64,000 bases of DNA from NCBI GenBank assembly GCA_902559635.1, contig CACEIY010000001.1, positions 1-64,000 on the forward strand. The letters are read 5' to 3'. The position numbers were made by a program, and so were the translations under genes. This DNA is from an uncultured Pelagibacteraceae bacterium (GTDB taxonomy: Bacteria > Pseudomonadota > Alphaproteobacteria > Pelagibacterales > Pelagibacteraceae). The stretch's first letter is position 1. Every line of letters starts with the position of its first letter. Shown in pieces: positions 27,676 through 62,618 of this stretch. The notes under the pieces are model-generated. The model worked only from the letters and a program-made list of their open reading frames with translations. It had not been told where the DNA came from and searched no databases.

Positions 27676-27752
27676 TGGTGGGCCCGCCAGGACTCGAACC
27701 TGGGACCAATACATTATGAGTGTACTGCTCTAACCAACTGAGCTACAGGCCC
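27676..27752 (-). tRNA. tRNA with CAT anticodon (elongator Met or, more likely by variable-loop sequence, Ile2/lysidine)
   Basis: GGGCCTGTAGCTCAGTTGGTTAGAGCAGTACACTCATAATGTATTGGTCCCAGGTTCGAGTCCTGGCGGGCCCACCA, cloverleaf closes, CCA encoded. Confidence 0.93.
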
Positions 27753-29038: not shown

Positions 29039-29113
29039 TGGTGGGCCGTGTTGGTTACGCTCCAACTACCCCTGCAATGTCAATGCAGTACTCTACTATT
29101 GAGCTAACGGCCC
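29039..29113 (-). tRNA. tRNA-Val(GAC)-like gene with non-canonical D- and T-loops
   Basis: GGGCCGTTAGCTCAATAGTAGAGTACTGCATTGACATTGCAGGGGTAGTTGGAGCGTAACCAACACGGCCCACCA; acceptor 7/7, anticodon 5/5 and T-stem 5/5 pairs intact, CCA encoded; T-loop AGCGTAA, D-loop AATAGTA. Confidence 0.75.
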
Positions 29114-29121
29114 ATTGGATA

Positions 29122-30939
29122 TTAGCTCTCTAAGAAACTTTTTAATTGTTTAGATCTGCTAGGGTGTTTTAATTTTCTTAAAGCTTTAGCTTCAATTTGT
29201 CTAATTCTTTCTCTAGTTACAGAAAACTGTAATCCAACTTCCTCTAAAGTGTGATCAGTGTTCATGCCTACACCAAATCTCATTCTTAAAACTCTTTCTT
29301 CTCTAGGTGTTAAGGTTGATAAAATTTTTGTAGTTGCTTCACCTAAATTAGACTTGATTGCTTGTTCTAAAGGGGCTAGTGCTTTTGTATCTTCAATAAA
29401 ATCACCTAAACTACTATCCTCTTCATCTCCAACTGGTTTTTCTAAAGAAACAGGTTCTTTAGAAATTTTTAATACTTTTCTTACTTTGTCTAAAGGCATT
29501 CTTAGCTTTTGAGCTAATTCTTCTGGAGTAGCTTCTCTACCAAACTCACTTAAAATTAATCTCTGGGTTCTTACAATTTTATTAATTGTTTCAATCATAT
29601 GAACTGGAATTCTTATTGTTCTCGCTTGGTCAGCAATTGATCTTGTTATTGCTTGTCTAATCCACCAAGTAGCATAAGTAGAAAACTTGTAGCCCCTTCT
29701 ATATTCAAATTTATCAACAGCTTTCATTAAACCTATGTTTCCTTCTTGTATTAAATCTAAGAACTGAAGACCTCTATTAGTGTATTTTTTTGCTATTGAA
29801 ATAACTAACCTCAAGTTAGCCTCGACCATCTCTTTTTTTGCAATTCTAGATTCTTTTTCACCTTTTTGGACCCTACTAACTAATTTTTTAAAATCAGTTA
29901 CTGACATTCCAAGTTTATGGCTCATTTCAATTAGTCTTTGTTTTATATTTTTAAATTCATCTTTATTTTTAGCAAAAAAATCTTTCCATACTTTATTGGT
30001 GTCTAAGAATTTTCTTAAATTTGGATTAATTTCATTGCCAACATAAAATTTAATAAATTCATTTCTTGAAATTTTATGATTCATAGCAAGCCTTAGAAGA
30101 TTTCCTTCTAAAGATATAATCTTTTTGTTTTCTACATAATGTTTTTGCACAAGTTCTTCTAAAACAGATGGGGATAATTGAAGTGATTTAATATTATTTA
30201 AAATATCATTAACAATTTTTTCATATCCTTTTTCTTTTGTAGCTGAAAAAGTTATGGAATTTAAAGTACAATTGAGTTTTTCTTTTAGATATTTTATTAA
30301 TTTATTATAATCTTTTGTTAAAGTATGTACTGTTTTAAGAACTTTTGGCTTAATTTCTGTTTCCATTGCAGCAAGCGTTGGATTAAAATCATCTTCTTCA
30401 TCATTTGAAGTTTCGTCAGTGTCACCTGCGTTTTTTTGTTTTGCGCTTGGGCCTGTTGTCTCATCTTCCATGTAGTTAGTATCAATATCAATAATTTCTC
30501 TTACTAAAATTTCATCTTTTTGTAATTTTTCATTCCATTCAAAAAACTGTTGGGCAGTAATTGGACTTTGAGATAATGCTATTAACATTACATCTTTTCC
30601 TGCTTCAATTCTTTTTGCTATAGCAATTTCTCCTTCTCTTGAAAGTAGTTCAACACCTCCCATTTCTCGGAGATACATTCTTATAGGATCATCACTTTTT
30701 TCAATTGTTTTACCTTCTTCTTTAGAAGAAGATTCTTTTTTTCTTAAAACTTTATAATCAGATTTTTTTTCTACTAAAGTAACATTCTCATCTAAGATAT
30801 GAATGAAAGCTTGCGCTAAATTTTCATCCGATAAATTTCTTTTTCCAAGTGATTTACTTAATTCTTCATAGGTAATAAAACCTCTGTGAGTCCCTCGACC
30901 CATTAATCTAGCAAATGATTTTGTAATAATTCTTTCCAC
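29122..30939 (-). CDS. rpoD: RNA polymerase primary sigma factor (sigma-70)
   Basis: [55 protein letters not shown], region 4 [24 protein letters not shown]. Confidence 0.98.
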
Positions 30940-62544: not shown

Positions 62545-62618
62545 TGGCTGGGGCGCTAGGATTCGAACCTAGGATGCAGGTACCAAAAACCCGTGCCTTA
62601 CCGCTTGGCTACGCCCCA
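62545..62618 (-). tRNA. tRNA-Gln(TTG)
   Basis: TGGGGCGTAGCCAAGCGGTAAGGCACGGGTTTTTGGTACCTGCATCCTAGGTTCGAATCCTAGCGCCCCAGCCA; U1-A72 typical of Gln, anticodon TTG, CCA encoded. Confidence 0.95.

Follow-up and report, generated by a model that had tools for sequence, protein, structure and literature searches.

A co-varied alternative elbow in the tRNA-Val(GAC) of SAR11 bacteria

RESULTS

A tRNA-Val(GAC) gene with an altered elbow downstream of rpoD

The window, i.e. the whole stretch of DNA analyzed here (64 000 nt from an uncultured Pelagibacteraceae bacterium, whose assembly comprises 0.93 Mb in 58 contigs and is 77% complete), contains a tRNA-Val(GAC) gene of 75 nt with an encoded CCA on the minus strand (29039..29113), identified by ARAGORN and by Rfam model RF00005. 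Directly upstream lies the open reading frame of rpoD (sigma-70; 29122..30939, minus strand), whose stop codon is separated from the tRNA gene by 8 nt. All 21 pairs of the cloverleaf, with arms of 7, 4, 5 and 5 bp, are formed, among them 7 of 7 in the acceptor and 5 of 5 in the T-stem. The anticodon loop TTGACAT contains U33, A37 and the anticodon GAC (29079..29081, minus strand; called by ARAGORN and invariant in an alignment of SAR11 tRNA-Val(GAC) genes). The elbow departs from the canonical one. By direct reading of the minus strand, the D-loop is AATAGTA (29094..29100), which places A18 at 29097 and G19 at 29096, and the T-loop is AGCGTAA (29055..29061), with A54 at 29061, G55 at 29060, C56 at 29059, G57 at 29058, U58 at 29057, A59 at 29056 and A60 at 29055. 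The canonical residues G18/U(Psi)55 are absent and replaced by A18 and G55, U54–A58 is absent and replaced by A54 and U58, and G19–C56 is retained. The two other tRNA genes of the window, which served as controls, have canonical loops: tRNA-Met(CAT) (27676..27752, minus strand) with AGTTGGTTA and TTCGAGT, and tRNA-Gln(TTG) (62545..62618, minus strand) with AGCGGTA and TTCGAAT.

Rereading of the sequence, ARAGORN and RF00005 confirmed what a first-pass annotation had described at this locus, namely its coordinates, the paired stems, the encoded CCA and the letters of both loops. The same annotation had expected that a generic tRNA finder may score the gene low or miss it, which was not the case: both programs detect it, RF00005 with 53.6 bits compared to a gathering score of 29, and by this score it ranks 12th among the 16 tRNAs of its own genome.

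Conservation of the alternative form in Pelagibacterales

Of 297 Pelagibacterales genomes, 184 contained the Val-specific pattern of the alternative tRNA, an occurrence well above what chance would give. A genome-wide scan with this tRNA gave at least 120 matches, all listed titles of which are Pelagibacteraceae or Pelagibacterales, which places the window in a SAR11 genome. The gene is identical in 20 of 60 sampled relatives (the window's genome not counted) and 84–99% identical in others, and rpoD is located 3–36 nt upstream in most relatives, for canonical and alternative forms alike. In an alignment of 20 distinct SAR11 tRNA-Val(GAC) sequences, each of the 21 stem pairs was formed in every sequence (420 of 420 cells), and double changes were found at 13 of the 21 pairs compared to at most 4 in slid controls. 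Because the alternative form occurs in 184 genomes and its stems carry many double compensations, sequencing error and strain-specific decay can be ruled out, and the earlier impression that the gene does not look like random decay is supported.

A search with the full-swap pattern, which is narrow and describes one fixed geometry, revealed no cloverleaf outside SAR11 among 299 Pseudomonadota genomes; its sole non-SAR11 match (G800) was rejected as not tRNA-like. In two genomes of genus g11 (G083 and G084, given as 99% and 95% complete) there was no tRNA-Val(GAC) among the best matches of the Val model, and those fetched were only tRNA-Val(TAC) or other tRNAs.

Canonical and alternative forms at the same locus

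Canonical sister genes read AATGGTA in the D-loop where the window gene reads AATAGTA, so that the register of A18 is unambiguous, and TTCGATC in the T-loop compared to AGCGTAA. We found the canonical tRNA-Val (G18 G19 and TTC) in family f2, in genera g5–g8 and g10, in most sampled members of g12 and, within the window's own genus, in nine genomes or more, often at the same locus as the alternative form, adjoining rpoD. The alternative form prevails in the own genus and also occurs in g9, in three genomes of g11 (G080–G082) and in one of g12 (G326), with AGCATAA and AGCGTTA as further T-loops. One canonical/alternative pair (L213 and L225) differs at residue 18, at one compensated T-stem pair and in the T-loop, and a second pair (L221 and L009) at one compensated acceptor pair, at residue 18 and in the T-loop. 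An intermediate was observed in one genome (G198, L216), where ATTAGTA and TGCAATC combine a swapped 18/55 with an unswapped 54/58.

On an rpoD tree, with bootstrap values that are unsettled, the elbow states interleave: parsimony counts nine changes, at least four of which are forced by supported branches. Sisters with a canonical TTC T-loop had been taken beforehand as a possible sign of sequencing error or strain-specific decay. Such sisters were indeed found, but here they do not imply decay or error, since each form is maintained at this locus, the two are intermingled on the rpoD tree, and D- and T-loop letters always change together.

In two genomes of the own genus an inserted block parts tRNA-Val from rpoD. 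In G198 (L494, 2172–4102) the block contains genes resembling an O-antigen ligase/polymerase and a methyltransferase; the second case is G161 (L495).

Covariation of elbow residues in SAR11 and viral tRNAs

Every tRNA with G55 also carried A18, in 18 of 18 distinct tRNAs from SAR11 and in 23 of 23 from viruses, many of the latter recovered by a scan for the T-arm, with the D-loop left free. After collapsing duplicates this holds for 19 of 19 combinations, and A18 was seen with U55 three times. For SAR11 and viral tRNAs combined, mutual information was computed on 712 distinct isotype–loop combinations. The highest value was that of 54–58 (z 85), and 18–55 was second by z (z 78). Between the D-loop and the T-loop the strongest links were 18–55 and 19–56, where the 19–56 value is biased, as position 19 was placed partly via its match to 56, and the 18–55 value is not directly biased. 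R57 was present in all 19 G55 combinations, although it is usual in canonical tRNAs as well. Since every G55 has A18, and since 54–58 and 19–56 covary too, the elbow is, as far as the sequences tell, co-varied, with A18/G55 standing for G18/U55 and A54/U58 for U54/A58, and with G19–C56 kept. The co-varied elbow suggested by the first-pass annotation is thereby upheld, as D-loop and T-loop letters shift jointly across SAR11 and viral tRNAs, and its position-wise reading matches the comparative data.

A pattern restricted to the T-arm matched 46 viral contigs. All matches inside tRNAs were accompanied by A18 G19 in the D-loop, and by anticodon they were mostly tRNA-Phe, with tRNA-Gln and tRNA-Asn also present. 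In two samples of viral tRNAs we observed three swaps: G-U to A-G at 18/55, U-A to A-U at 54/58, and G-C to A-U, or once to C-G, at 19/56. The 54/58 swap alone (A54 with U55) was seen in 12 viral tRNAs; the 18/55 and 54/58 swaps can occur separately, and therefore the switch between the two forms has viable intermediates. Phage tRNA-Val with the same elbow as the window gene was found in L204–L206. Searches of named phages found no close relatives of the window tRNA-Val and gave weak matches for the phage tRNA-Phe.

Several further observations were made in the viral material. A19–U56 occurs in place of G19–C56 in nine combinations, and C19–G56 occurs once, in a viral tRNA-Leu on L056 (contigs with 19/56 variants are L056, L077, L310, L331 and L354). 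In Pseudomonas phage Boevelstad (PQ464592.1, L503) ARAGORN identified tRNA-Gln, -Arg, -Cys and -Phe, which are unannotated in the deposited record (460–534, 674–750, 2207–2282 and 2495–2570 in L503), and its tRNA-Phe bears the A54/U58 swap (ATCGTAA). The 17-mer GTTGGAGCGTAACCAAC was also met outside tRNAs, in a recurrent protein-coding-like context in L043, L048, L052, L057, L060 and L079.

Alternative elbows in other SAR11 tRNAs

In a complete SAR11 genome of 1.34 Mb (G012), read up to its last 3 kb, 29 of 32 tRNAs have a canonical elbow, the exceptions being Val(GAC), Phe(GAA) and Thr(GGT). Its Val(GAC) shows the full swap. Phe(GAA) (L397, C1:1127215-1127289; AGGAGTA and TGCGAAT) and Thr(GGT) (C1:1131481-1131555; AGGTAGTA and TGCAAGT) show the 18/55 swap with U54/A58 kept. 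As the genome has no other tRNA-Phe, an elbow of the A18/G55 type does not conflict with a role in essential translation. In every matched genome listed for the order, tRNA-Phe has either G18 with TTC or A18 with TGC, and a pattern for its A18/G55 form, which is narrow and may miss other forms, matched only genomes of the own genus among 387 Alphaproteobacteria scanned. In the first 0.8 Mb of another genome (G079), which bears truB, tRNA-His(GTG) has A18 with TGC (C1:412994-413070, in L524; AGTTAGTTA and TGCAACT), and 22 other tRNAs are canonical. It had also been proposed to look for a tRNA-Val(TAC) elsewhere, and one is present in G012, so that Val(GAC) might be dispensable; GTT, which is read by G34, makes up 53% of the Val codons of this genome.

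Distribution of truB and other modification enzymes

TruB is the Psi55 synthase. Using TIGR00431, we did not find it in six SAR11 genomes, the window's own incomplete one included, while 14 of 14 controls were positive. Using PF01509, truB was absent from 26 of 26 genomes of the own genus, 2 of 2 of g5, 2 of 2 of g6, 1 of 1 of g9 and 8 of 8 of g12; it was present in g7, g8, g10 and g11, in 10 of 11 genomes of f2 and in 18 of 18 other Alphaproteobacteria. Genera without truB are scattered over the order (g1, g5, g6, g9 and g12). In the own genus truB is cleanly missing between rbfA and rpsO: in G012 infB-rbfA is directly followed by rpsO and pnp (about 1216430-1219020, C1), and G079 has truB at this place. 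The truB-bearing gene order is seen in L498. Enzymes for m5U54 were apparently absent from the few genomes covered: there was no homologue of E. coli TrmA in G012 and none in the 0.8 Mb of G079 that were read, and the matches to TrmFO were partial, below the cut-off and located in open reading frames of 624–640 aa, which most likely represent the paralogue MnmG.

The A18/G55 tRNA-Phe was found in 23 of 32 truB-lacking genomes compared to 0 of 16 truB-bearing genomes (Fisher p 1e-6, with relatedness ignored, as the genomes counted are not phylogenetically independent). The association is looser for tRNA-Val, as truB and the alternative form occur together in G080–G082 of g11, and the tRNA-His of G079 is alternative despite truB. 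These cases rule out, as a strict rule, that loss of truB is a necessary cause. It can therefore be at most a facilitating background, and may have relaxed the constraint on the elbow.

DISCUSSION

Proposed structure of the alternative elbow

In canonical tRNAs the T-loop takes up residue 18 by intercalation, which brings it into contact with Psi55; residues 54 and 58 form a reverse-Hoogsteen pair, and G19–C56 is exposed for recognition (PMC4810234). The T-loop of the TPP riboswitch has the consensus UGNRA, in which the G commonly contacts an A from outside, giving a composite GNRA (PMC2258182), and the T-loops of T-boxes include UGxRA and AGAGA (PMC7583486). We propose a GNRA-like turn for the alternative elbow, because G55-C56-R57 combined with A18 conforms to GNRA, with a purine at position 57 in every G55 case. 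By analogy, the structure is likely the composite GNRA fold described as 'UGNRA plus outside A' for the T-loops of the TPP riboswitch and T-boxes. The window gene has G at position 2 (G55), the outside A (A18) and R at position 4 (R57). The U1–A5 of this fold is present in L216 and in the tRNA-Phe, and the window gene has A54/U58 instead.

The comparative data show that G18/U55 was exchanged jointly for A18/G55, and U54/A58 jointly for A54/U58, with the pyrimidine at position 60 becoming A. A18 would insert into the T-loop beside G55-C56-R57 and form a G.A pair, such that G55-N56-R57-A18 would make up a composite GNRA turn that replaces the U-turn of U55 with the same stacking. The loop would be closed by A54/U58 as an inverted reverse-Hoogsteen pair, and this inversion would take place separately from the 18/55 swap. 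The G.A and A.U geometries are both predicted by covariation and analogy. G19–C56 is retained and would continue to offer its flat stacking surface to the ribosome, to RNase P and to further partners. The L shape and the role in translation would be preserved, while m5U54, Psi55 and Gm18 would be impossible and TruB, TrmA/TrmFO and TrmH (G18) would be unable to modify such an elbow. Many SAR11 genera have lost truB, which, together with the apparent absence of m5U54 enzymes, probably removed one constraint on U54/U55 and would thus have eased the switch. We consider it quite probable that the gene is expressed as a normal elongator tRNA-Val for GTC and GTT codons, and that its elbow is folded by substitute tertiary contacts.

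A further explanation concerns the cause of the change and is compatible with substitute contacts as the way in which the elbow works: once truB and other enzymes acting on the T-loop had been lost, the elbow may have drifted neutrally, the alternative having no function other than to restore the fold. This is possible, if somewhat short of probable, since truB is absent in genera having the A18/G55 tRNA-Phe, is cleanly missing from the infB-rbfA-truB-rpsO operon in G012, and the two states are interleaved on the rpoD tree. However, alternative elbows occur in the presence of truB (tRNA-Val of g11, tRNA-His of G079) as well as in phages, and the alternative tRNA-Val is very uniform over diverged genomes (20 identical relatives), which is atypical of free drift. 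It appears unlikely that the alternative tRNA was acquired as a ready-made block, either from phage or by recombination between SAR11 lineages. The phage tRNA-Val with the same elbow, the interleaved states and a matched 45-nt core shared by two g11 genomes (G081 and G082) with the window gene would be in agreement with such an import, but canonical and alternative SAR11 genes have acceptor, D-stem and anticodon stem in common and are distinguished almost solely by the elbow, as in the two pairs described above, and there is no match in named phages. Even more doubtful is an adaptive escape, in which the T-loop would evade an elbow-reading nuclease, a phage integrase using tRNA attachment sites or a modification enzyme; the repeated occurrence of the same elbow in phage tRNAs and the inserts between tRNA-Val and rpoD in G198 and G161, with polysaccharide-type genes in G198, speak for it, yet no nuclease, integrase or attachment site is linked to the gene and the same loops are shared by several unrelated isotypes. 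A non-proteogenic or regulatory tRNA, similar to the staphylococcal tRNA-Gly for cell-wall synthesis to which the first-pass annotation had pointed, is highly improbable: although TTC and G18 are lost and part of the Val codon box can be read by Val(TAC), the anticodon GAC is invariant, G19–C56 is kept, more than half of the Val codons in G012 are GTT read by G34, and the occurrence of A18/G55 in the sole tRNA-Phe of this genome and in SAR11 Thr(GGT) and His argues against such a role.

Taken together, the elbow of this tRNA-Val is a real, conserved and co-varied variant within a class of functional molecules. Beyond this, we lean towards the view that the elbow modules of bacterial and phage tRNAs form a small interchangeable set (G-U or A-G at 18/55; U-A or A-U at 54/58; G-C, A-U or C-G at 19/56), that Pelagibacterales, many of them without the Psi55 enzyme, moved Val, Phe, Thr and His to the composite-GNRA module, and that a near-universal contact may thus be replaceable in nature.

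Comparison with known systems

Few features of bacterial elongator tRNAs are as conserved as G18–Psi55 and TPsiC, which are recognized by the ribosome, by RNases P and Z and by modifying enzymes; the canonical elbow is near-universal but does not define a tRNA. Our findings suggest that this near-universal contact has a natural substitute in an abundant ocean bacterium, SAR11. We found no description of such an elbow in SAR11 or phages in the open-access literature, beyond which one may exist. Sister species that differ almost only at the elbow provide a natural experiment, and one complete genome has the A18/G55 substitute even in its single tRNA-Phe. The matched forms allow one to ask which contacts translocation, processing and modification need and what effect the loss of the Psi55 synthase has. 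Motif rules, for instance a required TTC T-loop, are unsafe for phage and SAR11 tRNAs. The non-proteogenic tRNA-Gly of staphylococci also has an altered T-loop and D-loop; however, it is a different isotype, glycine where the window gene with its GAC anticodon specifies valine, and the SAR11 RNA shows no sign of being outside translation.

Compared to the canonical bacterial elongator elbow (G18–Psi55, G19–C56, T54–A58; PMC4810234, PMC7912444), the window gene uses the same positions and the same set of partners. Both have G19–C56, R57, G53–C61, a T-loop of 7 nt and U8/A14 in common, whereas the window gene differs in A18/G55, in A54/U58 and in A for the pyrimidine at position 60, and offers no U54, U55 or G18 to modify. 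The UGNRA lonepair triloop or T-loop of the TPP riboswitch and of T-box Stem I (PMC2258182, PMC7583486) likewise has G at position 2, an outside A and R at position 4, and a loop closed by A (AGAGA) is likewise found in T-boxes. However, these are not D/T elbows of a tRNA, and the window gene closes its loop with A/U and not with U/A. A natural replacement of 54–58 is also known from the eukaryotic initiator tRNA, but there A54–A58 is a purine–purine combination in which A58 is kept, and no 18/55 swap is described (PMC7912444). Finally, tRNA-Pyl and metazoan mitochondrial tRNAs are likewise without G18G19 and TPsiC (PMC7609411); in these the cloverleaf is altered or the D/T contact is lost, whereas the SAR11 tRNA has a standard cloverleaf in which the contact appears to be replaced residue for residue.
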